From contig JARUPZ010000003.1 in the NCBI GenBank assembly GCA_031213475.1, positions 12,529,580 through 12,593,579 of the forward strand: 64,000 nucleotides of DNA, in the 5' to 3' direction. This DNA is from Nereocystis luetkeana (Eukaryota; Sar; Phaeophyceae; Laminariales; Laminariaceae). Position numbers and translations under genes: made by a program. This document shows positions 1 through 63,780 of this stretch, one piece after another; positions within the stretch are counted from its first letter, which is position 1; each line of letters begins with the position of its first letter. The notes below the pieces were generated by a model. It made no database searches. It saw only the letters and a program-made list of their open reading frames with translations, and was not told the DNA's origin.

Positions 1-2005
1 ACAATATTTATCTTCGGAGTCGTGCTACAACGATAACGACGGTGACGCAAGAAGTAAGAACGCCCACATCAACCTGACTGAATACTCTACAAATACATGG
101 AAATAGCGCAAAAAAAAAAAAAAAACACCCAGTGTAGCGTGCAGAGATCAGAGACTCAACAACACACGCGCAGTCTGCATAGTCGGATTTCAAGACGTAC
201 GATACAATGTCATACATCCCTCGTCGTTTTCTTCTCTGCTGAGGATAATGTAATACAACCCTCACCGTTTTACCTGCTCTGTTGAGGGAAAAACAGACCG
301 TGATGGCGCGAAGCACAATGACACGCAGGAGAAATAAACAACGACAGCACGCCGCCGCCACCAACCTGTTGCAGCCGCTCCTGTTGTTGTGTTAACCTCC
401 TGTCTCTGCTTCGTATCCCTAAAACTCTACAGTACAAGTTGTTGTGCAGCTCAGAAAAATCTCAGCGTACACAGTCTACAGCCCGTAAAAAAAAACACAT
501 CTACGGCAGCGAATAAATGATGAGAATTGCGCCAAAACAACTGTTCGAATATGGGTTGCTCAGCATCAGGGGGTGTGCGTTCATGTGCGTTCGAATGTGG
601 ATGTTCAGTATTTTGGCAGTTTCATGACTATCCGGGATATTGGCTCAGTATACTGTAGGTTACTTGGTGGTCGTTTCTGCGAGTGCACGTGATACCCACG
701 TGGTGACTCATGTCTGTCCCTACTCTGCCGGGAGAATGATGACAAGAACCTGAAACATCTTCGTTCTTCGCCCGGGATATATGAACAACAAACAGTGAGT
801 AGAGTGCAGAGACCGGAAGGAAAACAAATTAACCGCAACATAGACATGCAATCTGCAGATTCGATCCAGCAGAGTTTTCCCAGGAGATTGCCTGGGCGAT
901 CGCAGCAAAGCCCTCAGCAACAGCACTTAGCACCGCCAACAGCAGCAGCAGCAGCAGAACGAAGCAGAGCGGAGCAGAACCTGCTCCCTTCCTGTGATGC
1001 TGTCTTGCCTTGTCCCAATGTCAAGTTTTAAAAGGAACGATGAGAGTGTGCTTGAAGTTGAACCATACATGCTACATCTGCTGCCATGGCTGTCAAGTCA
1101 CAAGTGCCAGCGGTGACGGAATGCGGGCGAAACTACCGAACACAAAAAAAGGGTAAGAACAACTGGAAAGCAGCACACAAGAGTTGTAGACACCGGTACA
1201 GCAGGAGAGCAGCAGCAGCAGCAGCAGCAGCCGCAGGCAGAACAGAGCAGGACCTTGAATTCCCCTTTCTCTCTCACTCTTGCTTTCCTGCTATCAATAC
1301 ATAAAGTGTTGTGGTGTTTCGCTTTGTCCGCATGTCGAGCTCCAAAAGGAAGAATGTAAGTTTGCTCTATTCAATAGCGAAGATACCTGGTACGTAGTGT
1401 GCTGTCGCAACTGTCAAGACAAAGCTGTCCGCGGTGACGGAAAGCGGGTAAATCGTGCCAATACCGACAAAATGCACACGAGCTAGTCGTGCCGTGCGTG
1501 CGTCAGCTTGGGTGTTGACGTTAAAAGCCCGCCTGCTGCGGGCTAGTCGTGTTGTGTATCGTCTCCTGCTGTCAGCTGCTGACGCTCAAAGCCAGCCTGC
1601 CTGGGCTTGCCCTACCGATCGCCTGGTAGAATTGCTTACTTGTATCTATATATGAAGTATGTGTTTTACTCCGAGCTATTTGTCCTCGAAACGTGGACGC
1701 ACACTATGCAGCCTGCTGCTGCTGCGTTATTCGTGGGGTGTCGAGTGCTCATCGAGTAGAGGAGGTCTGCTGATTCGACGTTGGTGGGGTCGTGGGCTGT
1801 CCTTTCGTTCGAAACGGCTTCAAAATCGCAAAACAACAATGTTCGAGAGACATGCCTGCTAGGAAGTGGACTGAAAAATGGGGCACACAGCCAGCCAGGC
1901 AGACAGACAAACCCGACCTTCCCTCACAGAGCCCCCCGGCAAAACACTGAGGAGTCTACAAGCTTCGACGTAGGCAGGTGTTAGATTGAGAGCCGCCCCA
2001 CTCAC
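1..2005. other. Noncoding, left edge
   Basis: No exon with convincing splice borders is seen on either strand. The stretch holds an A-run near 107-125, CAG runs near 940-957 and 1205-1230 inside an imperfect duplication, and one TACCTGGTA at 1384. The remaining HSBP1 exon(s) expected 3' of the exon at 2006-2110 are not found here and probably lie left of the window. Confidence 0.5.
940..1470. repeat. Imperfect duplication headed by CAG runs
   Basis: Two related copies (about 940-1160 and 1205-1470) both start with a CAG run, continue through a T/C-rich stretch and an AAAAGGAA segment, and end in GCGGTGACGGAAAGCGGG or a one-base variant of it (about 1110 and 1430). They are strongly diverged. 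Short open frames with Cys pairs occur in the second copy, but no family is recognised. Confidence 0.5.
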
Positions 2006-2110
2006 CATCTGCTCCATGACGCTCTGAACGAAAACCGTCAAGTCTTCGGCCTCCACCGGCGTTTCCTTGTCAGCCGCCTTTGCTGCCTTTGCTGCCTCCT
2101 CCTTGCGTTC
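2006..2110 (-). CDS. HSBP1: HSBP1-like protein, internal exon
   Basis: This 35-codon exon is bounded by a pyrimidine-rich acceptor (ctttgcag) and a GTGAGTGG donor, phase 0 at both ends. It encodes a charged Lys/Ala/Glu lead-in followed by DLTVFVQSVMEQM. That matches the start of the heat-shock-factor-binding-protein family, where DLT.(F/V)VQ.LLQQM opens a short trimeric coiled coil that binds heat-shock factor and is also reported in WASH-complex assembly. The family is usually 75-90 residues with the rest of the helix (RFQTMS...IDELE) in the next exon; that exon is not seen to position 1. The first exon was not located either. Assignment rests on one 13-residue motif and clean splice sites. 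Confidence 0.65.
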
Positions 2111-2343
2111 CTGCAAAGGTGCAAGTAAGCCGCAAGGGCGGCATTTATAGGCCTTCCGGAACAAAGCTCCAGGAGCAGGGTGAGGTGTCCACTGCCACAA
2201 ACTGACGAGACTCTATTTCACAGGCGAGGGAGGTTGAGCTACTTCACGAGCTGACCGTACGAGATGGTGCCAGGTTTGCTGTCTAATATATCCCCCCACA
2301 GAAGTACGCTTGGGGCAAGCACTGTCTGCCTGGTCGGTGGAAA

Positions 2344-2415
2344 CCCGATATGCTCCGTCCCGGCATTGTAGGGATGCGAGGATCTATGGTCATACGACTA
2401 CGGCCATGCATGAGA
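2344..2415 (-). repeat. Family-D dispersed repeat, fragment
   Basis: In reverse orientation it matches the head of the family-D repeat: CATGCATGGCCGTAGTCGTA, then ATGACCATAGAtCCTCGCATCC-like sequence and the CCGGGACGGAGCA segment. The rest of the unit is absent. Confidence 0.6.
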
Positions 2416-3004
2416 TCAGGTACATCTCTCCTATCGAGTAACCCAACCCCCCCGACCCCCCCCTACAGCAGTAAGAACCACCTTCGTATGGGAAAGCTAG
2501 CGGGATGGAGGTCGAGAGTTCACCGTGAACTCGTGTTTGAAAGCCAATTGACACACGTCCGGTGCGATATAAGCGTTGCGGCGGAGGTGTGCCCTCCATC
2601 TTCCGGTCGGAAGAAGTTATGCGAGTCAATCGTTTCGCCGTTATTGCTGGATACAGGTTTGACCGCATGCCTTGCTTGTACATAGCTCGACTCAACCTAA
2701 CCAGCATGAGCTGCTGCCGACTGGGCTGCAGCTCAGCTTCGAGCCCTCTCGCGGCACGGCAGTTGGCCGTTGAGACAGTCTACCGCTCCACTCTTTCGGA
2801 ACGAAGTGGTGCTTTGCTTTGCACCATGAACCTCGTACACACGTATACGATATACGTACTGTACCACTCAGGGCGTAAACATGATGAACGTTGGGTCTTC
2901 AAATTTATGTATAAACGCGCTTTAGAACCGGACTCTCGTTTTGGGGACATATTACTTGGAGTTATTATTAGAGTCAGAAATATGTCCATGTAAAGTGCAG
3001 CTCT

Positions 3005-3119: not shown

Positions 3120-3162
3120 TTTAATTTCCGCTCAGAGCGGTACTGCTGTACCATACCCTGTA

Positions 3163-3380: not shown

Positions 3381-3391
3381 CGGGTACCTGG

Positions 3392-3500
3392 TATTACGGG
3401 GGACCATAGTAAATAGGACCAAATATTGATAGTAAAAATAGCGATTTATATAGGTTTTCGTGTGTACCGTAGGTTCTATTTAATATGGTCCCCCGTAATA
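3392..3500. mobile_element. TA-flanked MITE, family A copy 1
   Basis: About 109 bp including flanking TA duplicates. Inverted repeats read TTACGGGGGACCATAGT and its complement, then an AATAGGACC continuation; the centre is AT-rich. A TA target duplication and TIRs of this size fit a Tc1/mariner-type non-autonomous element. The left TA belongs to the word TACCTGGTA, as also at 30326. Confidence 0.85.
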
Positions 3501-4394
3501 GTTGGTATCCTGGTGTGATACTATACTACTGCTGTATACCAGGTATAGAGGCACCTGGTATACGGCACGACAAGTATGTTAACATTCAACATCGATTTTG
3601 CGAGTCCCATCTCTACTGCTTGCTGCTGTTGTATGTACATCTCCTGCGGCCGCCTTTACTTTCACTTCCTCGAACCGGCCACTGAGCTAATAACTGAAAC
3701 TGGATACCCGATCGCAGAGAATCACGGGGTTTGTTTTGCCTCTACAGCTCCTCGCACAACGAGCCAATCTGGTCTACACTGCTGCTGTACGTTCCTGGCT
3801 CGTGAGCAGCAGCAGAGCAACGAGTGTTTCGTTCACGAACTGCGAGTTCAAAATCTCGAAAGAACTCTGAAATAGATTCGTTGATACTTTTTGTTCCAGT
3901 ATCCAGTGCACCACACCACGACGTTGCACCTTCGAAGAGGTGCTATTTAATAGTTCACGCTTCGGTGCACAAGCTCACCATTGTCGCTGTTCCCTGACGT
4001 GCTCCTCCTCCTCAAGCTCAGCGCCTAAACAGTCGATACAGCAGTTGGTGCCAATGGGAACGGTAGGGTGTTCCACAAGTCGAAAGAAGCCGTAAATGTG
4101 GGGATGCGGGGACAATTTGTACGAATCACATTCAGTTCGTCATCCCCTTTAGCACCTCCCCCCATGCCCCCTCGTACTCCCCCCATGCCCCCCCCGCGCT
4201 ATTAGCCCCGCCCGACTCCAAGGATCCCCGTTGCTCTGTTGGTATATTTTATTGCCGCTGGATCGACCGCGAAATCCCTCTTCCGTTCTGATTATGAATA
4301 GTCCAAAATACGTACCAGGTACGAGTAAATACCGTTCGTTGATGTGGGATTTTGAAGCCGAGGGAGCAAAGCGAGTTCATAACAATCACGAGGA

Positions 4395-6060: not shown

Positions 6061-6095
6061 GCGATCTCCCACATTATTGAGCTTTTGAGTAAAAC

Positions 6096-7389: not shown

Positions 7390-7658
7390 TCGTGTAACAC
7401 ACTGGGTGATAAAATAACACCTCCCCCCCCCCTGACGATTTGCGAACCTGGCTTTCTCGACAACGGGAAGAAGGCAAAAAACAAGGCCGAGCGACGCGTC
7501 TGTCTGTGGAAAGATCTCGACGGAAGGATGTTCCCCTAAGCCGCCTTTTTCGTTACTTGGTTCCGCCCCCCTGCTGTTTTTGGTGGAGAATACAGGATAT
7601 ACCAGGTATGTAATATCCATCCCGGCAGGGGGTGTGCTATTTATGTCACCCGTGTGAT
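7390..7658 (+). mobile_element. Family-C TIR element, copy 2
   Basis: Left end TAACACACTGGGTGATAAAA, then the family core (CTTTCTCGACAACGG, GATCTCGACG) and a right end GGGGTGTGCTATTTATGTCACC. It lies directly downstream of the RSP2-like stop codon and would be in or just past the 3' UTR. Confidence 0.5.
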
Positions 7659-7932: not shown

Positions 7933-10900
7933 CTGCTTGTGCCCAATCAGTACCAGGTACACGGCAGTATTCGTTTGAGCGATTGTGAGTTAATACATGG
8001 AGCGTTGGCTTGACTTGTACAAGAAACATACATAATAAAATCCATTTTCCAAATAATAGTGCTGAACAAAATAGTGCAGGACACACCTCGCCTAGCATAA
8101 AAAATCGAGCCTGCGCCCAGTCTTGAGCGGTCTCGCGTACTGTATATGTTGTTGTTGATCTCACATTTTTTTGTGCTACTTTTTTTCCAGCGCGTGTTTA
8201 CGAAATGACACAAGGAGTCGACAGGCACAGTAGGTAGGAAGCACAAAAAAACTATCGGGGTAACAGGGTGACAAAGGGTTCCACGACCTGTTATTTTGCA
8301 AACGAAAGGCATGCCGTATAAAACGCAAGATAAAACACCCCTCTCAGACGATTTTTAAAGCTGGGTTTCTCGACAACGGAGAGGGCGTACTGAATACGCC
8401 AAGCGATGCGTCCATAGAACCTTCTGGACGAAGCCTTTCCAGAGCCAGCATTTTCGTTGTGTGTGCCCCCCATTCGGAGGAAACCGGGTCTGAAATTCGT
8501 TCCAGGGGGTGTGTTATATTGTCACCCAGTGTGATAGTGTACACCACTGGTATGCGCTATACAAGTATTTTATAAGTTCGAAGTGTATACGCATATTCGG
8601 GGCAACGACAGGAGGAGGGGTCAGACCGGTCTCTTGCCAGTGGATGCCATCATATTCGGTGCTGTGTTGGGAGGGATAACCTACTATAGCAGAATAACCT
8701 ACCCTGCCAGCGATAGCCTACTACTGGTACTGTAGTGGCCTGCTCAGTCAGTGGGTATAATAATATTCCGTGTTGTAGTATTAATAGAGGGGATGACCTA
8801 CAGAGGCCTACTCAGCCAGCGATCGCCTAACTACTGCTGTAGCCTACTCAGCCAGCGCTGATTGAGGGGGCTAGTAGGATATATCTCTTCTGACCAGTAC
8901 GGTAGATGCTTTATGAGTTCGACTCGGTCTCGGCATTGGATTCTCGCGGCGAACCCCCTCGCCCCTCGTGTCTGAAAAAGAAGACTCCACCTTCCCCTAT
9001 TATCCATCTGGAAAAGAGATAGGTCGCCGAGAATCGATCGAAGTATCGCATCGACCTCAGCACGGCAATTGCCGAACAAGAAACTAGAGTACTGGATCAG
9101 GCTAAGTTTCTTCTTCGGGAAGGGGTGTTGTTCGTCACAAGGGAGAACCTGCTACTCCACGCAGTCATCTGCAGTAGGTTATCGGTTCTAAACAACAGGT
9201 GCGTTCCACACGAACTTCAGGATAACGACTCCCGAATTTCCGATTTTCCTTGAACTTTATTGCTGCCCGCCTTTCTCAAGGCTCGTTCTCCTTCCGCAGG
9301 TGTCCCGCGCTTGTGTTACCAGGTACATGAACGAAAAAAACGGGTTGTCGTATCAAGGCATGCTACGAAAATATCGACGCAATTGGAACTTGCGGGCGCC
9401 ACGCGTACCTTCGCTTCTGCGGCAAGCGTGGCTGACGTTGGGTCGTCGACTTTAAAGGCCAAGATAGCCGGCACAAGCTCTGTGCTTACGGCCGTCCGCA
9501 TCTTGCCGACCCAATCCAGCGCGCCCCTGCTTTGTGCATGTCGTGCCAAGCAAGTATTGGGGTGATCGGGCGATAGGTAAGCGTGACGCTCAGGTGTCAC
9601 ATACCTGGTACAGCTATCAGTGATTCACAACTCGAGTCGGGGGGGAGTAGGGGGGGGGGCGACGAGAGCAAGCCGTTTTGCTCCTCGCTTACCGTGAAAA
9701 TTTCCCCGCGACAGTCCGCCCCCCCCAGGTAGGAAGGAAGTTGGAAAGGGGGTGGCTCGGAACCAAACCAGAAGGCTCGCGAATGCCCTATGTATCACGC
9801 GAAGCGACGTTCTTTTCTGCAGACGCCGAATCAAACGATACCCCAACAAACTACCGTATCAGGCCGATAAGCAAAACTTGGCATGTTGCCTGGATGGTTT
9901 CAAAGGGCGGAGATTGACCGTTCGTATGCCACGGGGCACAATGTTTATTTATCAAGTTTGCCATCCGACAAAGTGTGCAGCAGCGCTATCAACAGTGTCA
10001 ATCGCAACTAATGGCGCAGAAAGAGAATCTGAAGACCACGACGCACGAGTACAGAGGCGTAAAAGGACGACAACATTCCGTACCTGGCATCACACAGGTC
10101 GGACCTAGGCTTGCCCACCAGCAACAACGCTCGCTCCAACACATCGATCACGCCGGCCTGCGGATCGAGGTGGAGCTTCCCCATGAGGGAGACAAGACCC
10201 TTCACAGCTTCCACCGCCTTCAGTCTCACGCGGTATCGTGTCGCCTGGCCATTGAGCGAGCGGAAACAAGACATAAATTGGTGCAGATTCTGAGGAGCCC
10301 GGACGGTGTAGCCAACTTTATTTATTTAACCCAGTGAGGGGAAAAAAAATCCGAAACGAAAACGACACGCAGGCAGCATGATGGGGTGTGTAGGGTGGAT
10401 GTGTCCGAAGCTGCAACAGAAAGAAAGGGACGACACGCAGGCGGCATGATGGGGTGTAAGGGGTGTCGCCCACAGTTGCAACGGAAGAAAATGGGCGACA
10501 CGCAGGCAGCATGATGGGGTGTGTAGGGTGGGTGTGTCCGAAGTTGCGACGGAAGGAAAAGGACGACATGGAGGTGGCATGATGGGGTGTAAGGGATTTT
10601 GGCCGAAGGTACGACGGAAGGCAATAAACCACACGCGGGCAGCATGATGGCCCTTGGATTGCTGAACCCGCTCTTGCTATGGGACTGAGAAGACTGCCGC
10701 GCTTGTTGCCTTTTAGGGTGTCGCACGGCCGTTCACCGCGTGCATCTATCTGCAAGGATAATACGCTATCGAAACCCCTTCAAAAATACAGGAGGGGGGA
10801 AAAGCGTCGAAAGCAAAGTGATCGTAACGATTACAGCGGCGGCCACACAAACTATGGTATGTTTTATCGATGGAATGCCCGGACTTGAGGGCAACGAGTT

Positions 10901-13900: not shown

Positions 13901-16900
13901 GATCATCGTTCTTACTCCCAACAGAGACACCTCCAACAGTAGTTGGGCATTCATTACGTGGTCTAGACATGAAATCTTGAAAGCAGATTTAACGGTAACC
14001 AAGCGGCCTCGTATACGCAAGAAACGTTTTCAGAACACGGAAGTTGTCATAAAAACGATGACCGTCTTGCCCCTACCCGGTGAATGCCTTTTGAATCAGA
14101 TACTATTTAGCACTAGCGTCGCCTGAGACGGACGGAACTTCCGACGTCCTTCGTTCACCATTTCCGAACGGTGTCGTCTATGCATTTTTTTCTTCCAAGA
14201 CGAGCGGGAAACTTGCTGGCGATTTCGCGCTCAGTATCCACCGCCTTGCGGGCGGGGACGGATTTGCCCCCCCCCCCGCGCAACATATTCCGTACGTTAC
14301 CGCCGTTGCGACATACCGCCGTGCCAGGTACCCGCATATACTTTCATTTACCTTGGGCACCCTCGACATATTACTGCTGCTGCTGCGAAACAAAACATCG
14401 GCGTCTTCTGGTGGTACTTGTACGCACACGAGCGTCGTGCACGATCGCGGCTCGACTTTGGCAGATGTTCAGGGGACAGGGTACAAGGGATAGATTCACG
14501 CCACTGCTGTAGGGGTGCGCTGAAAACAAAACAGGGGGGTCCTCACTCAAAGAGCGCTGTATGACGAGGTACCTCATGAAAAAAAGGGATTTTTGATCCT
14601 ATGTGGTGTGAATGTGCAACTAACCCGATGGACTTATCCCGTCGTGAGCATATCGCAAATAGCTTGCAACGGTGCGTGTGAGTGATCAACGTGGAAGCTC
14701 ATGCTGCACATTTTCAAGGGTGGAAAAACGCAACTATACGGTAAGACATGCACGCATTATCGGGTGTTCCTCGGTGTCCGTGAAGAGCTCCGCCAGTGGG
14801 CAGCAATGTTGGCCATAAAGTGCTATATAGTAGTGTACCCCTATCTCGTGGCACGTATCGACAGCCGTACCAGGTACTAACGTAACAGACATCGCCGATG
14901 TATTTGAAAGCACCACCCTCCTTCGATCTGTCCCGTCCTTGGGGTTGCGCCGAGGAAGTCCGCGAGGAACTAAAACAGTCCTATTACGGGGGACCATAGT
15001 TAACAGGACCTGTGGTATACATAAAAACCTATATATTCAAGCATTTTTACTCACAATATTTGGTCCTATTAACTATGGTCCCCCGTAATAGCGACAGTCA
15101 CAGGTAACGAGCTTTGGGCTGGGTAGAGAGGGAACATTGCGCGGTCTGGCTGGTGACCTGCTCACTTTCTGGAACACGTGGGGTGGTGGTGATGTTTTCC
15201 GCGAAGGCATGCGAGTTCGCGTGCAGACAAATGATGGCAAGGCTCGAAATGGTTTAATGTCACGCAGGGGCTGCGGCAGGCTGCGTGCTATCACTGTTAC
15301 TGTTCAACGTGTAGTTGGCAGCTGCGTTACACGTCGTATAAGCAAAGACGATTTCATCGCAAGGGATTTTAGTTCACCTCAAAGAGGTTGGAGTAGTCGG
15401 AAACGAGGAGCCGAGAGCACGCGTGCGAAGGGCTGTGTAGGGCATGTTGTACGCCGATGATGCAGGAGTTGTCTCAAAGTCGGCTGAAGGGTTCGCTAAA
15501 CGGATGACAGTCATCGTCACTGTCTTCGAAGCAGCAGGCTTCCCGATATCAGGAAACAAGACAAAGAGAGTGCTGCTACAAACACCGGGCCAGACAACCC
15601 TCGCCTCACCGCCCGTCATAGAAGCAGCAGGCCAGAGGTATAGACAGACAGCCCAGTTATTGTACCTAGGCAACATCATCAACGAAAACGCTGACCTCTC
15701 GATCGAAATCGACCGACGGATCCGTCTTATGCGGGCATGCCTCAAACGGTTCGGCCTGGAGTTGTATGACAGGACGACTGTCCCGCCTAGCCTGAACTAA
15801 TGCTGAAGGCCGAGGTGATTGAGACCCTGCTTTACGGGAGTGTAACGTCTCCCCTCAGGGGGGAACACGTCGCCTGGCTCCGAACGGCTCACCACCAGGT
15901 CCTTTGCGAGTTATTGGCTTCCAGCGCATGACTTCGTACCTACCGCACCACCCTCTCATACGCGAAGGCCCTCAAGATGACACGTTGCGAGAGCATCGAA
16001 CGACCATCCGTAAACGGCGGCTCTGTTTTTGAGGGGCCGTGGCACGGCAAAGAAAAGGGGCGACTACGCAGCCGGGTAATGTTCGGGATGATGGAGCTGG
16101 TGGAGAGAAGCCGAGACCTGGCGGGCAGTTTCAGACTTGGCATAGATGCATAGTCGAAGACCTCAGGGAGTTCCGAGCCACCAAGAGACAACCGGACACT
16201 CCCCCTTGGTATTGAGACTTGGAACGGCGCTGTGGCCCTCTGCAGCAAAAAATGCGGGTACGTGGTACCGGGGGGCCACCGAGGCAGCCGAACGGTTCAT
16301 GGTCAAGTGGCACGAGGATGAGGCACAGCTGAGTAGGCAGCGCCGCGCATCCGTCGTGGGTGGTGCCCAAGGCAGACAGGAGGAGTAGAAGCAAACCCGA
16401 CCAAGGGAATAGGGGCAGGGGAGGCAACAGGAGGAGAATAAGGGAACCGCGGTGGGCGAATGTAGGAAGGAGACGGCAGACAGGGTAGCAAAGCCCCAGG
16501 CCCACTATCAATAGTGGGTGGAACGTGTCTGTGCTACTCGTACCGCCAACTGCTGCAGGTGTTTCGAACGTCATGTTTCTTTCTTCCTTCTTTCTTTTTT
16601 TTGCGCTTTGATCCTCCAAGAAATTCCTGATTTTTTCCTTCTGTCTTGCTTCCTTTTTTGTCTTCATGAAAAATGTCTTGTTTCATGGGTGGATGGCGAG
16701 TCTGTTTTTTTTTGCTTTCATTGCCTGACGCATCCTCTTCGGGGTGGGGTACGGTAGCGACACTACCGTCTCTGTCGGCGAAGTACGAGGGGGCGGCGTC
16801 CCTCTCTCTTCTTCGCCTGGGGATTTCTCTCGCGACGTTTGTGTCGTGCAGAGTCCCCCGCGCTTCATACGTTTCACTGGGAGGAGGTGACAGACCGCGT

Positions 16901-19900
16901 GGAGACCGCGTGGCAACGGCTCCAGCTGCATTCGAAACCCCATGTCGGCTGCTGCATCGAGTCCTGCTCGTGGGCTGCCGTGTTATTCTGGTTCTGGATG
17001 TTGGTTTGCTTGACTTTGTTTTTTTCATTTGTCTCTCACGTTTTCCGTTCACGTTTTCGTTTCATTTTCCATTTATTATTTTCCATTTTTTTGTTTAGGT
17101 TGGTTAATTTATTTTAGTTTAGTTGTATTTCATCACTTTCTCTCTCAATGTTTAGGTTGCTAGGGTATGCATATTGTGCTTGTCGTACCCAGGACGATGG
17201 CATGGCACTGCGTTATCTGTTCGGCTTGCGAGTTGGTACTGCATTGCCATGTGCCATATATGTGTCGTAGTTTGTTACCACAGGGCTTGTACCTTAATAG
17301 GGTGATTAACCAGGATGGACACTCGGTGTGCTGGATGTCGACGAGTAGAAAAACAATTTAATGTGAAGAACATATACAAATAGCAGTGGTTTCACATATG
17401 TGTCGTATCGCCCCCGCACGGGCTTGCTTCTCTCGCTCGTCTCGGCGAATAAAACGATCGTGTACTATGCAATGGAATCTATCGATCGACCGACCGACCG
17501 ATCGACCAGCCGACGCTCTCTCACCTCAAGGGCTTGGACGGCGACCTTGAGCTTGCCTGCCCACACCTTCGCCCACTCGACCTCCGCCGCGCTGAAACAT
17601 CTCCCCTATTCATATAGGACCATCATCAAGGGGGTAAAGGGGTAAAGAAATGAACACTATGCACTTGAGGATGATGCCCATGGTGGACACGGTGGGCATG
17701 ATGCACTTACTTTATGCACATGATGCATATGATGCACATTATGCACATACATTGTGTACGGTCCAATCATGAAGCGTGTTAGATACCTACTACGGCACGT
17801 GTGAGGGTTGTACTTTCGAGCCCAAACTTTTCTCGCTGACGGTGCTCCACATCGAGCAGATGATCTACTTCCACTTCATGATCTACAGCAGACATTTCAG
17901 GGCAGATATATGTAGTCCTGATTTGTATGATCTGCCTGGTACAGTGTATCATGTTGCCGGGTGGGAGCCGTACAGTCTGCATGATGTGTGATTCCTGCCT
18001 TGGATCTGTACTACACAGATCCTGCTGGGCATCTCTTACCAGCAGGTTAGCATCTAGATGATCTATCTGTAGATCGTGATCTGCACGAGAGGTGTGGAAG
18101 GTTCGTACTTGATATCGTTGGGTGCGATGTGAGCTTCACGATAGTATCCGTTTAGATATCTAGCTACTATAGCCGTACCTGGTATACAGGATATCTAGAA
18201 TGTTTCAGTCTGGCTTATCTTGAGCACTTTCTGAGAGCCGGCTGCTGGGTGCTGCTGCAGGTATTGAGCTCCTCAGAGTGCCACATGGGATAGGATCCGG
18301 GTGGGATCAGGGTAAAGGCGTTGACCAATGAAAACAGGGGTGTGGCCTATTGGGGTTGGTCGGATAGCGCGTCCAACCCCGAAGCACTAGAACACTGATA
18401 AATAGCGGCGGGTTGCAATCTACGCTGCGAGTTCTGCAGTAGAATCGCAATGGGGTCGCGCCCTTTTTAAGTGGGTTTCCTGGAGATTTGTTCCACGAAG
18501 TACAGCCCAAGGGAACTGGTTTACGAAGGGAGGGGTCTGCGAAGCATAAGGTGCTACACCTCTACCTTGGGACGGGTCTAAGAGTTATCTCGATGCAAAC
18601 ACAGAATCCCTCCTGAGGACCGCCACATCGGAGGCATGTACGAATAAGCGTGTTTTGAGTTCTCTTGAACAAAACATGCAACCCCAGCGCGACGTAGCGC
18701 CATTTAAAGCGCGATTTTAGCCTCCACTCTGCTCTGAGTAGCGCCTGATGTGATGCGGCTTGGCAGCTCTTTGAATAGGCAGATCGACCTCCGTGCTTTC
18801 TCAAGTTTGTGATAATAATTCTCCCTACACCACATATATATACGCCAACCGGCTGAAATGAAATGGTATTGTCCGTATGGGCACAATTTCGGTAGCCATG
18901 AGCTACGCCACCGTCGATCTGACGCTGAACGGTAGTCACGATCAAAGCCGGTGGCCCGATCGGGGTCATGGCCGCCCACCCTTACTATACGTATTCTAAA
19001 AGTGAACACAGCGAAAATAAAAATGAACAACTACTGTAGCTCTTCTTGTAGGAAGTAGCAAACACAACGAACAGGCAGATGTCCAGCTATGTAGCTCTTG
19101 TCGGAAGCCGTCACCAGAACCGAAGACAGCGAACAAAACAAGTCACAGATGGTTCTTGCTAAAGGGAGACATACGAACACTTTCGCAGGAACTATGTGCA
19201 ACTTGCACAGGAGGGGTCAGCACCAGCAGGAAGACGGTAATGAGCGAGTGAGCACTTGCGCGATAAGTTACGAGTACTTTGCACACATCTATGAGGGATA
19301 CTTGAAGGACTTTGCACGCACTATGCGCGAGTCTATGAGGTACTTACAGGAAGGATGAGCACTTGCACGCAAGAAAATGTCAGGGTTGTTCACGGGTCGG
19401 GTTGGGTCAGACCTCACGGGTCAGGTCGGGTCGGGTCGGATCGGGTAAGGGTGTCCCGACCCGATCCGCGAGAGTTTGTTTAAAACCTCGTAACCCGACG
19501 CGACCCGACCCGACCCGTGAGATTCCAAAAACGTCCCGACTCGAGGATCAGATCATTGAACCGTAAAGAGCCCTGGTATCCTTTAGCACTTACAGCAAGA
19601 ACGTATGAACACTTGCACGAGAAATATGTGAGTACGAGCAATAGCATGGGTCGAATCGTACCTGCCCTATGGTGTCAGCGCACAGCACCAGCTCAGCGGC
19701 CGCCTCGTTTTTGCTGTACACGCTAGCGGACACTGCCAGCGTTTTGTCGTCGCTTGCGATGGCCCCTTCTGGCGGCTTTATTGTACGCACGTGAAACGAT
19801 GCACCAGGATTTAAATCACATGTACGGAGGGCGGAAGGCGGTCGGTGGTCGTGTGGCCGATGTTGCGTTTGTGCTTCGCTTCCCTGGTATGAGTTGTGAG

Positions 19901-30163: not shown

Positions 30164-30325
30164 GTGAGCTGGGACATCAATATTAATATTCGTTTCAAAA
30201 CGTCTGCTATGTGAGATGCGGCAGTAGATGGTTTTTGTGCCAGTACGAGGTATGCTGCTGTCTACGAGGTACGACGAGTACTCGTTACGTCGTTACATAC
30301 CTGGTACCTGGTACGCCGTACCAGG

Positions 30326-30434
30326 TATTACGGGGGGCCATAGTTAATAGGACCTATGGTATACATAAAAACCCAGATATTTAACCATTTTTACTAACAA
30401 TATTTGGTCCTATTAACTATGGTCCCCAGTAATA
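30326..30434. mobile_element. TA-flanked MITE, family A copy 6
   Basis: TTACGGGGGGCCATAGTTAA with its near-complement at the far end. The left TA is the end of TACCAGGTA (30319), and TATTAATA abuts the right end. Confidence 0.85.
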
Positions 30435-38110: not shown

Positions 38111-38587
38111 GTAAAAATGGGTCGTGGTGTCAAGGCACGTAGGTATGGAGTTCGAGCTTACGTAGCTCATGGCCCAAGACTTGCAAGGGTACACAAGAGA
38201 GCGATGATGGTGTCTGGGCATTGCCCAATAGACGGCGGGGAGAGCGCCGAAAACCTTATCTTAAAGTTAATTGCCCAAGCTTCGGAGCTGCATCTGTATG
38301 TTTCGGGGAGGTATTGCTTGAAGTTGGAGTGAAACACTGCGCGAGGTTTGGAGACCATAGTAGTGATAGTGCCCGACTTGATGTGTGCTGACCATCAACC
38401 CGGCCTTCGTACGTACGGGGCTGTGACTGCACCCTGTGTATCGAGGCGTTCTAGCGTTTTTCCTGGGGTCCACCACGGGGAGTGGTTACAATAATATACG
38501 AACGACCCGCACCCCAGTATTCTGCTGATACCTGCATAGATCGTACCAGAATGTACTGCCTGCGGAGGTAGGATGTACCAGGTATCA

Positions 38588-42700: not shown

Positions 42701-45570
42701 CTCTTTGTTGCAAGTCCGCTCGGAGACCCCGGTCCGCCACCAACCGCTGTAGACCTATAGCCCGCCGTTCCTTGCTTACTCTCGTACGCCGATTCGGCGC
42801 AAAATCTTCCCAAGCGGCGAATAATTCCAACCATGAAAATGTGGCCAGATTCATGCCGCTCCGTTGGTGGTCTCCGTGCCGAGATGTTGCGGACGAGGCG
42901 CCGATCAGCTTGTAATATGTATCAGGATGTAATCAAGGCGATATCGGCCTTTGCCCCGGTTTGCAGATCGAAAAGTGTACGTTACTCCACGAGCGGGCGT
43001 GGCGAAAAACTTATTCAGGAGCGCAAGCTTGTTGTTTGTTTCCTGGAGGAGTAGTCTCTCTCCGCTATCGATATATTCGTCACGTCCGCATGCACCGAAC
43101 ACCTTACTGTCTGCACACCCGTTCTCTCGTTTGCCATCAGGACGAGGAGATGGTCCCCACCGGGGACCCCAGCTATGACGCTGTCGAGTGCATTCCAAAA
43201 GTGATCCCTCTCGTGGGTCGTAGCGCCTTCTGTAGGGGCATGGCCGACAACAAAACGATACACCATTTTATTTACCCACGAAATCGATGCGAACCTTCAT
43301 CAGTCTCGCACTGATGCACTCCACAACAAGACCGCCCTTTCCCACCTCTGACGCAGTAGACTCTCCGACAGATAGTCCCCCTCCATGAGTCTCTTTCCTT
43401 TTGAACTTGCTCCCGTCTTCCTCAGAGAAAAAAACAGTACACCCCACGGTCGTAAAAGTACTATTCCCATCACGTCTGGTATCATGAAGACCCACGACGC
43501 CACAGTCTAGCTCCAAGAAGAACTCAATGATGACCGCGCTGTGGCCGATGCCGTTCTTGCTGTTGAAGGCGAGCGCGTGAACATTGAAAATGCCCACTAC
43601 GAGTGCCGCAGCTCTGGACCTAGCCCTGGCACCTGAGCGTAGCTTCCGAGCTTCTCTCTGAGCCCTCCCGCGTTCCATCCGTTTCTTTTAGAGTTGCGTT
43701 TTTTTTCCCCTCCACTCTCCACTTTTCCCTAGCGGTGCGATTCTTCCGTTCCATGCTCCTTTTCCCGGCCCAGTTCGTGCCTAGATTCCAACGTGCTGGG
43801 GGTAGCAGTTCCAGCGCGCCTCGACGCCCATAATCTCCGATGACGCCGATTGGGGCGCTTACTCACGCGGGTCGTAGCCTCTCTTCTCCGTCCGCTACGA
43901 GTTCCACGCTTTCCGCGACGATGATGCGACACAGCTTTCGCAGGCATTACTGCCGCAGTGAAAACAGCCGTGAGGACATTTTCCGCCATGTCGCTAACCA
44001 TCACCGTCGGCTTGGTCATGCTGGAGCGCCAGTTCGCACACGAGTACGGCCAACGCCGCACTCCTCTGGGAGCTCTTGCACCTGTTGGGAGAACCGCAGG
44101 CCACAGCTCCTCCCCGGCCGAAGGACAGCCGCAGTATATACAGGAGGCCGTGGTCATCGCTGGATAGTACCTGGTATACAACTACCGTGCAGGTTGTCTC
44201 TTGGTTATGTTTGGGTCATTCACATGTGTTGGTATCGTCTTAGCTCTCCCTTGCCTCTTCAGGTGTTTCTGAGACGGGGGGGGCAAGTACTCCACTCGCA
44301 AGAGAGGCAAGCATTCCTTCCTCCAAGAGAACCAATAACAGCGACAGTAACGCCTCCCCAACAATATAGGGGAAACAGGGATACCATAGCATTAGGGATC
44401 CCTCACGAGCTTCCTGAAGCATCCGCCGAACGCCGAAACGTTCCGAAAAAGGAATATTTTTGGGGGAATTGCTAAGAAGAAGTTGTTTTCTGTTTGTTTC
44501 TACCTTCCACCAATGCATACACGTTGACGACAGTTACAAATATCCTGCTGAGCGGGTTCCTAGCGATAGCTACACCACCCCACCTGGTGTGCTCAAGGAG
44601 CCTTATCGAAGGATTTTTTGTCTTAAATTTAACAGATAAATCGGGAAAATGGGAACGAAGCCTAAAATGAGAACCAAGCCGTATCTCCAGAACCATGTGG
44701 TGTATCAGAGAACCAAAATGATCCTGCGAAACCCCTTGGCCAGCCCTGTGAGAGGAGCTCGTCAGAACGGTCATGCTCCATCTCGTGCCTTCGGGTGGGC
44801 GCAAAAAGCGATATACGCTGGCTCTATTGTGATTTCTCTAGATGCTGGCTACCGCGGCGATGCCGAGGACTTCCAGCCTGAGCGACAGCTCATTCGAAGG
44901 CTGCTGTACTGCCCCACAGGACTGTCAACTTTTTTTCTTGGAGTTGTACACAATTGGTTTGCTTTCTAAAAAAAAACGTCCGTTCTCATTTTTGGCTTCG
45001 TTCCCATTTTTCCGATTTATCTGTTATTTCCCGACTTATCATTGTTTTCCCCTGTTTTTCCTGTTTTTTGTCGGAAACAATATTACAACATGGAAAAAGA
45101 GAAAATAAAAATCTGATAAGACTAGCCCTAATAGCAGTTGTGTGTGAGTCACTCTCACCTTTACGCAGAAGGCCTGCAGAGATGAAGTCAAGTTCTTCGA
45201 GCCGGAGAGCGACCAAACCATCTCCGAAGGCAAAGACCTGCGCGCAGAAAAAAGAGTACATTGGATTATTCCTCGACATAATATGGGGGGTAACAAAAAC
45301 TCATATTCTCAAGTATATCGATATATCGCTTCGATATTCGACACAAATGCAAGAGCACGTATTATATCTATAGGGAGAGGAGAGCCTGGGTTTGGGAATG
45401 TGGTTGAGTGGGGACAGAGACGAGGTTGATTGTGGGCATTAGGTTCGGCACATATTAATAGACATATGATAGCATATATACGCCTCACCTCGTTTTCATT
45501 TTCCCAGCTCTCTCCTTTTCTACGGACATAGCCGCCGCTACCCGCAGCTGAAAGACGCTCAGCACCAGCC
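39511..45570 (-). CDS. TPRKB: TPRKB / CGI-121 (KEOPS/EKC subunit), 3' part of gene
   Basis: Three exons with matching phases give LSVFQLRVAAA, GKMKTRSLPSEMVWSLSGSK, NLTSSLQAFCVK, EVEDASLLVAAIGVDEEEF, and KKMYKITEEELAVSSLEDSV VMRMTVKDH. These follow human TPRKB step by step: FQILVAANKAV, GKMKTRTLSTEIIFNLS, NISEALKKFGI, DTSILIVYIE, and KIYKL...SIGTLLDAIICRMSTKDV. TPRKB/Cgi121 binds the Bud32/PRPK kinase in the complex that makes t6A37 on tRNAs. The first 60 or so residues, in an upstream exon that must end in phase 1, were not found to the right. A 26-residue Gly/Ser/Glu insertion precedes the last helix. The 5.4-kb intron 39781-45158 holds LINE-B, two piggyBac-like MITEs and a family-F element. 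Confidence 0.85.
40169..40219. mobile_element. piggyBac-like MITE, family B copy 2 (left half)
   Basis: TTAACGCTTTTAGGAATGCA, GCCCCGTTCTGGGGGCAA, then CTTGGAGC as in copy 1. It continues for a few bases after an inserted TACAGCAGTA (40220) and is then lost. Confidence 0.55.
40380..41090. repeat. Complex tandem repeat, unit about 125-170 bp
   Basis: Words GGTACAGCAGTATGGYATCT ATACTCG, TCGCCCTGAAGGCATGCTCT TGTGTACTTG and GCTCGTCGCGCGCTCGCATG recur in order three to four times; from 40985 it degrades to GGTATGGTA. No coding frame is kept. Confidence 0.65.
41300..41396. mobile_element. piggyBac-like MITE, family B copy 3 (complete)
   Basis: 97 bp including TTAA at both ends. Inverted repeats of about 35 bp share GCAGTCCCGTTWTGGGGAC. 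The right end, inverted, reads TTAACCCTGTTAGAACCGCA. Confidence 0.75.
42010..43690 (-). mobile_element. LINE-B, 5' half (endonuclease to RT start)
   Basis: Non-LTR remnant in the TPRKB intron, same strand as the gene. N-terminal APE-type endonuclease pieces: VVGIFNVHALAFNSKNGIGH, CGVVGLHDTRRDGN, then VVGHAPTEGATTHERDHFWN and LLVLMANERTG, where family members have DANARTG. Next a linker (42250-42830) and the RT opening WFHKVLNTKL... MANRKAVGSDGLPIELLK, which ends in a stop near 42013. The YADD palm and C-terminus are absent. At least three frame changes are visible. Confidence 0.8.
44631..45027. mobile_element. TIR element, family F copy 2 (complete)
   Basis: Ends TAACAGATAAATCGGGAAAA and inverted TAACAGATAAATCGGAAAAA, continuing GGGAACGAAGCC; TIR about 46 bp, element about 397 bp. 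No transposase. Nearly identical to 4957-5190, so recently active. Confidence 0.75.
45159..45237 (-). CDS. TPRKB: TPRKB middle exon
   Basis: 79 bases: (R)SLPSEMVWSLSGSKNLTSS, LQAFCVK. Acceptor ttctgcgcgcag, donor GTGAGA. Two other frames are open here, but only this one matches both neighbours in phase and in TPRKB alignment. Confidence 0.85.
45489..45570 (-). CDS. TPRKB: TPRKB exon with GKMKTR motif
   Basis: 82 bases: GLVLSVFQLRVAAAMSVEKE, RAGKMKT and two bases of Arg. Acceptor tatcgccctgggcag, donor GTGAGG. Needs one base from an upstream exon, so the internal ATG is not the start. Confidence 0.82.
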
Positions 45571-47757: not shown

Positions 47758-47900
47758 TATTACGAGGGACCATAGTTAATAGGACCCATGGTATACACAA
47801 AAACCTACCATATATATTTACTCATTTTTGCTCACAATATTAATATTTGGTCCTTCACAATATTAATATTTGGTCCTTTTTACTATGGTCCCCCGTAATA
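47758..47900. mobile_element. TA-flanked MITE, family A copy 7
   Basis: TTACGAGGGACCATAGTTAA and CTATGGTCCCCCGTAA ends. Longer than the norm because CACAATATTAATATTTGGTC is present twice, each with TATTAATA where other copies have TA. Confidence 0.85.
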
Positions 47901-49598: not shown

Positions 49599-50639
49599 TG
49601 CTGCGGCATGAGATCACACCCAAACTTGTTGACCCTTCTCTTAACTCAATGTCGTCGCTCGTTTCATGCGTACCTGGTACCCCTGGCATTATTTTTGCGG
49701 GTGCCTTCTATTCCTTGTTGTCCCCAAACTCGTAACCTAGTTGATTAGGGGTTATGCTACCGTTGGTTGTCCCGTGGGAACGTCGTGTACGATTTTCCAT
49801 GCCCCTCCGACGGTGATACGGCGCTGGGGTATGCGATTGCGGTGTGATGCACCCGGAAAGCGAATACCAGCGGTTACCCCCCCCCCCCCACCCCAGATTT
49901 GGCGAGAATGTACTCGTGGCCCCACGAGGACTCGCAGGGGTACAACTGCTATAGTCTGCAAGTTCGAGGTACATTCAACGGATAGGAGGTATATCTGAGA
50001 GCCGAATACCACCGATGAAGTGCAACTCACGCTACGTTTCTGAGGTATGTAGGGTTTGCCGAGGTCAGCCCTCCTGCCTGAGACCGAACCAACAGACCGG
50101 CAGTGCTACAGCAAAGCGCAACGCTATGCCAGTGTGTGCCTGCTGTTTACTCTGTGTACTTTCCTTGAATTTACGACTTGCCTGCATCCAGCAGAGAGAC
50201 CCGAGCCAAGTGCTTGCTTTTCAGCAATGTTGCGTTTTTCACGTTTTTGTACAGTGCCAACGTCAGCATCACCTCTGGATAACCATCTACGACGAATTTC
50301 TCCATGGTAACACTAGGCTTGGCTCTGCTTCACTGCTGGTTCAGGCTTCTGGCTTCCGGGCCGGGTTCCGCGCTCGACACTCGATGCTAGGCCCCTGATA
50401 ACAAAAGCAAACTTTTTCGAGTGGAAAACTGCGAACCGGCATTATTTATACCGCGTGCTTGATGCTTGCTGCTTGGGGAGCATCAGCATCATACCGTGCA
50501 CTTGCTCAGAGTGCATCTCGTAGTTCGTAGTACATGCACATATATACGAGGAGAGTGTACGTGCTAGCTCCATTGCTGCAGAGCTAGACCTATCACCCAG
50601 TAACGCGTAGCCAGTTCCTGGCGGCGAGACTCGTTGCGC

Positions 50640-52088: not shown

Positions 52089-52500
52089 CTAGAACGCTAT
52101 ACTTACGTACGTTGAGTGCGACCTCAGATCCTTACCTAGATTTAGCTACGATTGGTGCAACCTCCGACACTTCCCTGAGTTTTACCTACTGTAACTTTAG
52201 ATACGACCTTCGATGTTTACCTAAGTTTTACCTAACGTTAGGTACGACCCCTGATACTTACCTAAGCTTTAGCTATGACCTCCGGTACTTACCTAAGCTT
52301 TAGTTAGCGTTAGGTACGACCTCCGATACTTACCCAAGTTTTACCTACGACCTCCAATACTTACCTACCAGGTAACAGGTAAGTTTTAGGAACGTTAGGT
52401 ACGTTAGATACGACGCTCGATGCTTCGATTCCACCTCCGATCCTTACCGAACTAAGTTTAGGTTCGAGCTCGGATACACATCTAAGTTCAGGTACGGCCT
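52089..52500. repeat. GTACGACCTCCGATACTTAC array, part 1
   Basis: Units of 35-40 bp: TACGACCTCCGATACTTACC, TAAGTTTTACCTACGTTAGG. About ten degenerate copies. Confidence 0.8.
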
Positions 52501-58823: not shown

Positions 58824-58980
58824 TCGTTGTATGTGTGTGCCTAGGATCAAATATACCAGGTACACACTTCGTACGCAGACATAAATTGCGCGAGCACATT
58901 GTTCGTCGTTTTATGTGTGTGCCTTGAATCAGATATATACCTGGTACCAGGTATACACTTCGTACGCAGACATAAAAAAC
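58824..58980. repeat. Tandem duplication with differing TACCWGGTA content
   Basis: Two copies of ATGTGTGTGCC...ATATACC...ACACTTCGTACGCAGACATA. The first has one TACCAGGTA, the second an abutting TACCTGGTACCAGGTA. Confidence 0.75.
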
Positions 58981-59029
58981 GCGACTACGAGTATACGAAT
59001 ACAGCAGTAGTGATTGGTGCTGGGTCCAG

Positions 59030-60096: not shown

Positions 60097-60540
60097 GTGG
60101 GGCGCATCGCAAATGGACATTTCGTTGTCGGAAAAGGGGTGTACACATGGCAGCCAGCAGGGCGGGATCGAGAGCACGTTGGCCAGGATGCATCTTACAA
60201 TCAATGCACACAGCTATACGTAGCGGTGCCGACAAGTCTATTCGTCCACGCGTCACACGATGGGACGTTTAAACGAGCGTGCAACATGCAACACAGCAGC
60301 AACGCAGCATGCAGACACACCCAAGAGCAAAGAGGCCTCGGTGCAAAGGAGACGGCACTTTCCCCCGCCTTGACAGCTGAAAGACGGCAAATTCCCATCA
60401 CTTTACCTCGAAGCTCGCCAAACTACTCCTGTACAAGCAGTACTATTAAATACTGCTGTACTGCTGTAGACCTCCTGCTGAGTACTGGTAGTGTTTAACG
60501 CGTACATACCTGGTAGTATGACGTACCAGGTACCAGGTAA

Positions 60541-60700: not shown

Positions 60701-60877
60701 ATGGGGAGTGATAGACAAGGGGGGTTGTATCGCAAGCCACGGCAGTTGGCAGCACAGGCGCAACCGGCCACGAGCTGCCTCGCCGGGTTACCGCTGTGGT
60801 TTGTCCGATGTCCGATAGGAACAAGTGTGCTTCTATACTGCAGTATACCGTACTAGTTGTTTTTTTTTGCCAAAAAA

Positions 60878-61310
60878 GAAGGCTCGTTCTGTGCGGCCGA
60901 CTCCTGCTGTTCAATGGATTATTTGGCGGAAGTTGCACGCAAGTTGGCAAAGCAACGCTTGCAGATTGCCTTGGATGGAGTTTTTGCCTCTCCCTGACAG
61001 GTCGAGGCGGTCCCATTTCTTGGCGTCACACAGTGTGCATGACACGGCCTTGGGAGGTAGTGACCGCAAGTCCTACAAGGCTGCGCACCTTGGCGGGTCG
61101 AAGTACTGTACTGCCCACCGATCTACCCGCCTTTCAAGCCCGTGCCATCCATGCACAATGTGTGACGCCGAGAAAGGGGACCGCCTCGACCTGTCCGGGG
61201 GTGGCAAAGACCCTCCCAGGGCAATCTGCAAGCGCCGCTTTGCCCACTTGCCTGTGACTTTCGCCAAATAATCCATTGAACAGACAGTGGTCGGCCGCAC
61301 AGAACGGGCC
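60878..61310. repeat. Long inverted repeat, arms about 165 bp
   Basis: Left arm 60878-61040 and right arm about 61137-61310 are inverted copies: GTTCTGTGCGGCCGAC, GTTCAATGGATTATTTGGCG, GCGCTTGCAGATTGCC, GACAGGTCGAGGCGGTCCC and GGCGTCACACA occur in order in each. Spacer about 100 bp. Each arm has a frame with Cys/His pairs, perhaps a C-terminal zinc-finger piece of a transposase; not proven. Confidence 0.7.
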
Positions 61311-62472
61311 TTCTTCCGGTTCTTACGTCAGACGTTTACTCCCCCAAGAAACAACGCTTGCATCAACGGCTTGCTTTGCTTCCTTTGCTTGTTCGCTTGG
61401 TGTGCTTGCCTTAAGAAATTTCTCGGAAATTTCTCGGAAATTTCTCGGAATACATGTGCGATTATTGAGGAAGAAGTTTAGTGTGAACTATCAACCACTT
61501 GTCGAACTTGGCGCAAGTCGCAAACACTACTACCTGTAGTCACTTTCGGTGGTTCTTTCTTATTTGGTCAACCCCACTATTTAATAGTTACTTCTAACAT
61601 TTTCGAGGCCGACGTAACTACTATCAAAATAGTACTCGTCTCATACGCATTGACTCTACGTACATCCTGGCTGGGGTAAGTAGGGTTTTGGAGTTATCGA
61701 TGTCAACGTTGTCACGGGACGGGACGATCGTTCCGAATCCCGAATCCCGTGAAATCCCGCGGGGCAAATATAGCGGTCAAAGTCCCGAGGACTGATCATG
61801 CTTCATTTTTTTAGTGTCGGCCCCTGCCGCCTGCGCGTACGGCAATACCGTGGTACAGCAGGTAGGGGTTGCACGTTTTGGGCCAAAGGTTTCTGACCAG
61901 TTGAGTTCCTTAAGTGAGGAACTGCCAGCTTGGATGAAAAAATTACTCGTATGTTCAATTTAGGACGAGCGCATACAAGTGCCGATCGGGTGGCACGAAC
62001 AAATTTCTTCCAAGTGTTGTTTCGGGTGAGATATTGAGCTCCTAATGTGAGGGGACTCAGGAACTTCTGGTGCACCCCTACCGTGGGATAATGGCAGCGT
62101 CTATTGCCCGTACTTTGAGATGATGCTCCGCTCCGCTATCAGCAGTAATAGCACCCCATGGCAAATACAACAGGCTGGCCCATCAAGAGAATGCGATCAG
62201 GGTTATTCGCTGGACACTAACGACCAGCGCTACTTTCGACCCCTACACCTGCACATCTTTCATACCGGCATTCTCTTTCTGTCGTCGATGAAAAGTTTGT
62301 GTGAGGTTTTGATGATTTTTTTGTGGCGTTCTGATACCACGCTTTCGTGGCGTGATGATGGCGTTTTGATGACGTTTTTCATAGAGTTCTAGTGGATGAC
62401 GTATTGGTGATGCTTTAGATGGCAGTTTATTGCCGTTTTTATGAACTTTTGATGGGTTTATTTGCGCGCAAG
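61311..62472. other. Noncoding, 61.3-62.5 kb
   Basis: Small tandem repeat TTTCTCGGAAA (about 61417-61450) and GATGATTTTTTTGTGGCG / GTTTTGATGACG words (62300-62400). No supported exon. Confidence 0.4.
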
Positions 62473-62556
62473 CAGGACGACCGTGGGGACCCGGGAGACG
62501 CAGACGTCGAGCCTCCCGCGCGAGGGACAGGCGAAGAGCGAGGGAACGTCGCCGGG
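62473..62556 (+). CDS. Acidic internal exon, unknown protein
   Basis: Twenty-eight codons (or 27 with the alternative acceptor three bases on): QDDRGDPGDADVEPPARGTG, EERGNVAG, donor GTGAGT (strong), phase 0. GC-rich. Probably spliced to the exon at 63949. Confidence 0.55.
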
Positions 62557-62900
62557 GTGAGTTGGCAGCCAGTAGTTTGGATATGTTCGGCAGCAGCAAA
62601 AATTGGCGACCTACAGCAGTATGTGCCGATATACCTCGGGACGTTACTCCGTTGTACGCACTACGTACAAGTGTGTACTCGTACGCATTTTTGTAATAAA
62701 TTTAGCTCAATTCACCCATGGGACAAATCACGATCTAGATCATACCAGGTATAGATCGTGTAGATCGTATAGACTAAGTATATTGATCACATAGACAATC
62801 TTTTGGCCGTTCCGTTACGAGACGTTATGCAAGAGCTGTATCATCCAGATCCCACCCGACCGAAGTGATCTATTATTAGACGATACAGACAATGTACAGG

Positions 62901-63014
62901 TATTACGGGGGGGCATACTAAAAAGGACCAAATGTTGTTAGTAAAAGTAGGGAAATATATACCAGGTAGGTTTTTGTTTGTACAATAGGTCCTATTTACT
63001 ATGGTCCCCCTTTA
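62901..63014. mobile_element. TA-flanked MITE, family A copy 9
   Basis: TTACGGGGGGGCATACTAAA and CTATGGTCCCCCTTTAAA ends; contains TACCAGGTA at 62960 where other copies read TATATAGG. Confidence 0.75.
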
Positions 63015-63780
63015 AAAATCGGGGATGCGTTTGCTCCGAGAGATCTGCTGTACATAATATCACGATACGTTAAAGGATTCGCACAGGAGGTCGTGTATAC
63101 GTATCATGCGATGCAGTAAGTAGGCGTGTAAGGTATTCTATTAATAGCAGCACGTGCGAGCTAAAGGTATAGTAAATAGGCGTTTAGCGTGCACGGGGGG
63201 GGGGAGGGGGTCGTTTTTCAGCGCTCGATTAATCCAGAACGAGAAGGTTGCGACAAGTATCAATACCGAACAACATTAAGTTGTTTTTGGAAATATCTGG
63301 TCGAAGGAGAAGAGATCCTTCAGAGAATAAAACGTACCTGGTACGCCCTGAGCACCCTTACCGTCGTTGTCGAGAAAACGAGTAGCGCTGAAAAAAAACG
63401 GTGGCACCACTGTGCAAACCCCACGCTGCCATGTGCCGCCGGTTTGAAGTGATATGGTACCAGGGTCTGAACATGTGTGCCGCCGGCCCTACGCATGAGT
63501 TGGGCAAGCGTGTCGAACCTTTATTTTTGTGTCTCCCGTCCTTGTCTCCTCCTTGGCTACAACAGACAACAGCAGCGCTGTGAAACTGCTGCGAGTATAG
63601 CCTGATGTACCGGTATTGGTACGAGATTGTCTTATTATGCTCGCGATTTTGCACTCGAAAGAATACACCGCCTATCAGGCGCTACGACCACGCTTCTTGA
63701 GGCTTCCAAATAAAAACACGCCTTTCTCTCTTCACCAACCAACACAACAGCTGAGCGTATGTCATCAACTTGAAGGCGTC

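Follow-up and report, generated by a model that had tools for sequence, protein, structure and literature searches.

Results

Distribution of the TACCWGGTA Word

The 64-kb stretch of DNA analyzed here (hereafter, the window), which is very likely of brown-algal origin, contains 37 exact sites of a short palindrome, TACCWGGTA (W being A or T), with A at the center of 20 of them (TACCAGGTA) and T at the center of the other 17 (TACCTGGTA) on the plus strand, alongside nine copies of a palindromic miniature inverted-repeat transposable element (MITE) and several other words enclosed between two TAs. The initial annotation had reported 36 of these sites against an expectation of about 0.5 and had claimed a strong over-representation, and this stands: uniform base usage gives an expectation of 0.49 (by arithmetic), 4-mer statistics give 0.80, and order-3 simulations yielded 0 to 3 sites per sequence (n = 20) and 0.93 on average (n = 100), while the 7.0 sites predicted by a 6-mer model come from a model that is itself inflated by the word it contains. 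All 36 previously listed sites exist and 35 of their coordinates are exact, the one given as 38577 actually starting at 38576, and a site at 29659 had been overlooked.

Comparisons within the window with shuffled 9-mers and one-base variants point the same way. The 4848 same-letter permutations of the word, both strands considered, have a mean of 0.40 occurrences, with the top non-overlapping word reaching 5; the runner-up among the W/S-centered 9-base palindromes occurs 6 times, and TACCWGGTA ranks third among the 9-mers of the window, behind poly-C and poly-A. At the center of the word, C is found 3 times and G never (plus strand), and the one-base variants at the outer positions number 29 versus about 14 expected from trinucleotides; as this is only about twice the expectation, most of the recognizable sites are undecayed.

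The sites are unstranded and, unless stated otherwise, are defined by an exact word match. TACCTGGTA is found at 1384-1392, 9602-9610, 18176-18184, 23805-23813, 29659-29667 (the site overlooked previously), 36425-36433, 40026-40034, 44168-44176, 49671-49679 and 63335-63343, as well as at 3385-3393, where its final TA also flanks a MITE copy, whereas TACCAGGTA is found at 7600-7608, 7951-7959, 9317-9325, 14868-14876, 28087-28095, 28460-28468, 36325-36333, 38576-38584 and 62743-62751, as well as at 3537-3545, where it adjoins TACTGCTGTA. More elaborate arrangements include TACCAGGTA (4313) and TACGAGTA (4320) with one TA in common (4313-4327); three sites starting at 30298, 30305 and 30319, the first two with a common TA and the third adjoining a MITE (30298-30327); two sites, 30479 and 30503, amid a cluster of intact and altered words (30479-30511); and three sites starting at 60507, 60524 and 60531, the last two with a common TA (60507-60539). 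At 52366-52374, TACCAGGTA is followed by TAACAGGTA in a 72-base tandem repeat whose remaining units lack 14 of the bases present at this locus; the surplus can be read as a pair of 7-base units, the second of which has one base altered. A local duplication has TACCAGGTA in its first copy (58854-58862) and the double word TACCTGGTACCAGGTA (58938 and 58945; 58938-58953) in its second, i.e., the word is present in both copies, single in one and double in the other. Finally, judging by alignment, the TACCTGGTA site at 27582-27590 belongs to a MITE copy and lies in its left end, which is disturbed.

The sites do not all come from one repeat, in line with how the initial annotation had seen them. 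When their 150-base flanks were compared to the window (one word masked, E <= 1e-3), flanks in register were found only for 58854 and 58938/58945, and sites 3385 and 30319 both adjoin the same MITE end; the few remaining flank matches were the double words themselves, and common flanks in register, as expected of members of one dispersed repeat family, were not seen at most of the sites. Several sites lie in or near the 109-base MITE, at differing offsets, and there is some clustering around it (10 of the 37 sites are no more than 75 bases from a MITE copy versus 2.9 expected from TA content).

The Word as a 7-Base Insertion

The MITE family, which supplied the empty sites, is about 109 bases long, has ends given as TATTACGGGGGACCATAG or as TTACGGGGGACCATAGTTAATAGGACC and is flanked by TA; its window copies are those at 3392, 13306, 14982, 27246, 27593 (27570 in the alignment), 30326 (the reference copy, 30326-30434, plus strand), 47755, 55713 and 62901. 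The alignment covered 17 copies, nine of them located in the window and eight on contigs of metagenome-assembled genomes (MAGs); the word is present in copies 27570 and 62901, which exceed most of the remaining copies by exactly seven bases, those having TA at the place in question. In the accompanying empty-site test, each TACCWGGTA was collapsed to TA and paralogues were searched for across the junction at 44 sites (37 in the window, seven on MAG contigs). Clean insertions were seen at three of the nine sites having a junction paralogue, namely, TACCTGGTA at 27634-27642 and TACCAGGTA at 62960-62968, both within MITE copies, and the word at L030:2762, which occupies a third position in the MITE (copy L030:2676 of a MAG contig); bare TA is found in 9/14, 7/15 and 9/13 of the junction-spanning paralogues, respectively. 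Wherever a clean empty copy exists, the change is from TA to TA-CCWGG-TA, so that at these three sites, the word is an insertion relative to an empty site, with the TA duplicated.

As a control, 320 other TA-N5-TA words were treated likewise, 66 of which had a paralogue and four of which were scored as insertions, with the support of 1/14, 1/1, 3/9 and 1/14 paralogues; one of these four, L030:2769, has as its first TA the one that closes the word at L030:2762 and is probably the same event. The collapsed targets (n = 37) show a preference for R-TA-Y, with GTAC (10 versus 4.3 expected) and ATAC/GTAT (16 versus 6.8) favored, and CTAC/GTAG (1 versus 5.3) and ATAA/TTAT (0 versus 4.0) disfavored.

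Other TA-X-TA Words

TACCWGGTA is not a single privileged motif, for other similarly built TA-X-TA words are enriched too. CAGCAG/CTGCTG words (TACAGCAGTA/TACTGCTGTA) have 17 sites between 2464 and 62612 versus 0.4 expected, CGAG/CTCG words (TACGAGTA/TACTCGTA) have 18 sites between 4320 and 62676 versus 3.3 expected, and TA-CWG-TA is found 22 times versus 9.6 expected; CAGCAG, CGAG and CWG all begin with C, end with G and are partly self-complementary. TACGTA is enriched as well (38 versus 18 expected). CAGCAG is sharp when compared to its one-base neighbors (mean 0.70), and CAGCAG/CGAG sites have in-register flanks only at 40720/40844, some others being located at MITE edges or beside repeats. 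Tandem TACTGCTGTA words with a common TA at 60451-60468 exemplify the 6-base class, for which an origin by insertion might be assumed by analogy; by the same analogy, the CAGCAG and CGAG words would fit one TA-X-TA scar rule with TACCWGGTA.

Among the sites with a paralogue, one of two for CWG and one of eight for CCA/TGG were of the insertion type. The former, TACTGTA at 52187-52193, is a 5-base insertion at TA with the very sequence of a Sleeping Beauty scar (two of four paralogues are ungapped with TA, one of four when assessed more strictly), and the latter, TACCATA at 47806-47812, likewise has five bases inserted at TA, here within a MITE copy (bare TA in 7 of 14 paralogues).

Occurrence on MAG, Viral and Bacterial Contigs

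In a bacterial/archaeal genome collection, a 22-base pattern of the MITE was found only in two MAG contigs, labeled Phycisphaera and Flavimaricola; the MITE as such resides on three contigs (L030, L034 and L035) of these two MAGs, and searches of 394 and 392 bacterial genomes returned nothing beyond the two. The g3_MAG contigs apparently belong to the MAG set of a bull kelp (Nereocystis luetkeana) study, as their naming matches, and partial host kelp genomes are mentioned in the part of that study consulted (PMC9238374). Contig L030 (12,215 bases) has MITE copies, a relative of the window repeat at 41297-41396 and three TACCWGGTA words; because both the MITE and a second window repeat are present, algal contamination very likely accounts for the first few kilobases of this contig, if not for more of it. 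Across both MAGs (~5.4 Mb), TACCWGGTA occurs 7 times, including the three on L030, versus 13 times for the pattern read backwards, and the word is thus not enriched in bacterial DNA. The window therefore very likely comes from a brown alga, within or close to the kelps, which agrees with the eukaryotic origin asserted by the initial annotation. A drop in G+C at one end was also noticed in bacterial-labeled contigs (L035, 1-2000, with MITE copies; L038, 14500-17850; and L036, 9000-10031), which suggests chimeric assembly.

Nine stretches of viral contigs with the double word hold two words each (three in one case) over lengths of 2.3 to 13.7 kb, which adds little to the double word by which they had been selected, and in the viral contigs, neither matches to two 17-base MITE patterns nor a relative of the protein query were found.

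Other Features of the Window

A frame with an HCxxGxxR phosphatase signature, probably one of the Pfam phosphatase matches, lies at 36865-37134 (plus strand), and the TACCWGGTA sites 36325 and 36425 are upstream of it. The palindromic repeat at 41300-41396, which has TTAA at both ends and relatives in L030 and contig 127 of G001, is possibly a TTAA-inserting MITE. The window also contains a 397-base element with 45-base inverted ends that are 96% complementary (44630-45026) and nested long inverted repeats with arms of 31, 68 and 62 bases (60876-61315), which form a large hairpin-like structure. Neither Rfam families nor tRNAs were found in the window. A DDE_3 match in G001 was set aside, as the surrounding DNA was judged bacterial by eye.

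Discussion

Excision Footprints as the Probable Origin

TACCWGGTA is, in our opinion, probably the footprint left upon excision by a cut-and-paste transposon with TA as its target. The insertion at TA, with duplication of the latter, is directly visible at the three sites having clean empty copies, and it is from there that we infer a transposon, its ends, a 5-base stagger and the annealing of overhangs. Such an element would insert at TA, duplicating it, and would have ends starting with 5'-CCAGG or CCTGG; at excision, its transposase would leave the terminal bases behind on both donor flanks in the form of 3' overhangs, these overhangs would be self-complementary save for the center (C-G pairing at four positions, with an A.A or T.T mismatch in the middle) and could be ligated, and the mismatch would then be settled as A or T, producing TACCAGGTA or TACCTGGTA. 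Annealing of this kind predicts A and T centers in equal numbers (20:17 were seen) and, if the sequence of one strand is kept, mixed-strand outcomes at background levels: TACAGCTGTA, TACTGCAGTA, TACGCGTA and TACTAGTA were observed 0, 1, 1 and 1 times, respectively, versus 0.12, 0.15, 1.02 and 0.95 expected. The same rule might yield TA-CAGCAG-TA, TA-CGAG-TA and TA-CWG-TA as the scars of other families. Tandem words, moreover, have a TA in common at 30298/30305, 58938/58945, 60524/60531, 4313/4320 and 60451/60459, which looks as if the TA of a scar had been re-used as a target.

A five-base scar means that the stagger is longer or else that a shorter overhang was filled in. Provided that the words are scars at all, end-to-end joining of 2- or 3-base overhangs (CC or CCW), completed by fill-in or by the addition of one A, would produce CCWGG and dispense with the 5-base stagger, and 3-base 3' overhangs are indeed given for Sleeping Beauty and mariner in the consulted part of PMC7827188; TACCGGTA, the product lacking the extra base, is found 5 times versus 0.87 expected. 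We nevertheless regard this variant as rather unlikely, as TACCATGGTA, the full fill-in product of 3-base overhangs, has 0 occurrences, and CAGCAG and CGAG would be left unexplained if they are scars too. The uniformity of the scar favors annealing of long overhangs, without proving it.

Several observations nevertheless weigh against a footprint origin, the most obvious of which concern the element itself. Half-site pairs up to 20 kb apart in the window included no convincing CCWGG-ended element (the best pair matched at 16 of 24 bases, seven of them by design), and neither did the TA-flanked inverted ends listed up to 12 kb apart, where the five pairs in which the whole word opens one or both ends matched at 14 or 15 of 18 bases, mostly owing to the word itself. 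Nor were convincing CCWGG ends found among 25 of the 64 pairs of inverted repeats up to 6 kb in the window, what the element searches returned being mainly the TTACGGGGG MITE family. A Pfam scan (E <= 0.01) of 300 of the 751 filtered stop-to-stop frames of the window gave no transposase and only one reverse transcriptase. The empty-site evidence is narrow as well: a usable paralogue was available at only 9 of 44 sites, and six of these nine (52366, 58854, 58938, 58945, 30503 and L030:2824) were not clean. The test in its loose form also fires at other lengths, namely, at 11/71 (1 base), 2/99 (2), 4/33 (3), 3/64 (4), 3/41 (6), 11/58 (7) and 6/51 (8), although mostly on the strength of few paralogues, and TATTAATA at 47838 scores 8/10, yet sits in a 23-base tandem duplication; the case therefore leans on the alignment and on how many empty copies the three sites have, rather than on the score alone. 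As for the companion words, CGAG is only moderately sharp against its neighbors (mean 2.88, best 7), CWG and CSG are not sharp, no empty sites were found for CAGCAG and CGAG (with a paralogue at 4/19 and 0/19 sites, respectively), and TACSGTA, mildly enriched and of the insertion type at 0/8 sites, was dropped as a scar class. Finally, the five bases of CCWGG exceed the 2-4 bases given for Tc1/mariner scars in the part of PMC7913693 consulted, and scars of TA elements may vary within one site, as described for Stowaway in Triticeae in the relevant passages of PMC1925063, whereas TACCWGGTA is uniform over many loci. The missing intact element, however, need not be fatal, since neutral scars could accumulate at each excision while the copy number stays low.

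Competing Explanations

The initial annotation had likened the word to HIP1, and a protein-binding or methylation palindrome conserved by selection, as considered for HIP1, would account for the high copy number, the perfect palindrome, the few one-base variants and the many isolated places. At three places, however, the word arrives whole, as a 7-base TA-duplicating insertion in MITE copies, which is how a transposon scar arises and does not support the analogy, and further TA-X-TA words are enriched alongside it, making conservation by selection quite improbable. Could the 7-base unit, sometimes found in tandem, be instead a tiny insertion by some other process, be it templated repair, telomere-like addition of 7-base units or palindromic MITE shrinkage? 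We find this unlikely, given that the sequence is identical at unrelated sites, that 5-base inserts of other letters also occur at TA and that 31 of the 37 words have no TA in common with another copy. Programmed DNA elimination during the life cycle, as opposed to ordinary transposition, would likewise account for the abundance of scars in 64 kb where no convincing intact element was found, but no such process was seen in this analysis, and a few very active copies would, over a long time, also give many scars and few copies; this last explanation strikes us as very improbable.

Should the footprint origin be true, past transposition would be countable from scars alone, even with the elements lost, since what stands between the TAs of a scar is the end sequence peculiar to the family that left it; scar length would, in turn, report the cutting distance inside the element, and with five or six bases, the reported range of TA-inserting transposons would be widened. 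It also calls for caution, as a palindrome may be over-represented without serving as a binding site, and TACCWGGTA probably testifies to transposon activity, not to a control signal. A wider, and decidedly tentative, proposal would be that brown algae carry at least one undescribed group of TA-inserting transposases whose cuts lie 4, 5 or 6 bases inward from the element ends, and that every such group leaves a single, precisely annealed palindromic scar, now among the most repeated non-coding words.

Comparison with Known Systems

TACCAGGTA and TACCTGGTA occur in 119 and 109 papers, respectively, and none of the 20 titles listed for each is about a genome-wide word; among the literature matches listed on footprints, iterated palindromes and brown-algal elements, there was likewise no report of TACCWGGTA. 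HIP1 of cyanobacteria (GCGATCGC), discussed in connection with DNA methyltransferases in the part of PMC4390886 consulted, is likewise a short palindrome occurring far above expectation. TACCWGGTA differs from it both in sequence and in being a TA-duplicating insertion in very likely algal DNA. The Tec/internal eliminated sequence junctions of Euplotes involve TA-flanked elements that are cut with a longer stagger, a heteroduplex then lying between the two TAs; these, however, belong to programmed elimination in a ciliate, and no such life stage was seen in this analysis.

Closer parallels are offered by Sleeping Beauty and Tc1/mariner in general, with which, as far as the cited passages go, the word has in common the TA duplication, the palindrome, the choice of A or T at the center and the (proposed) element-end bases between the TAs. 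Sleeping Beauty proceeds in the manner proposed here with CAG, and its footprints are TACAGTA and TACTGTA, i.e., TACWGTA (PMC4378557), with three bases between the TAs where TACCWGGTA has five, and Passer footprints have 0-4 bases (PMC9976928, the part cited); a further difference from Sleeping Beauty is that the source element and transposase of TACCWGGTA were not found in the window scans. Stowaway, according to the same passages of PMC1925063, resembles it in its TA...TA scars with fragments of terminal repeats and in the re-use of the same TA. The kind of scar is a known one, and it is the length, uniformity and number of the proposed TACCWGGTA scars that differ from what the consulted parts of the cited papers describe.

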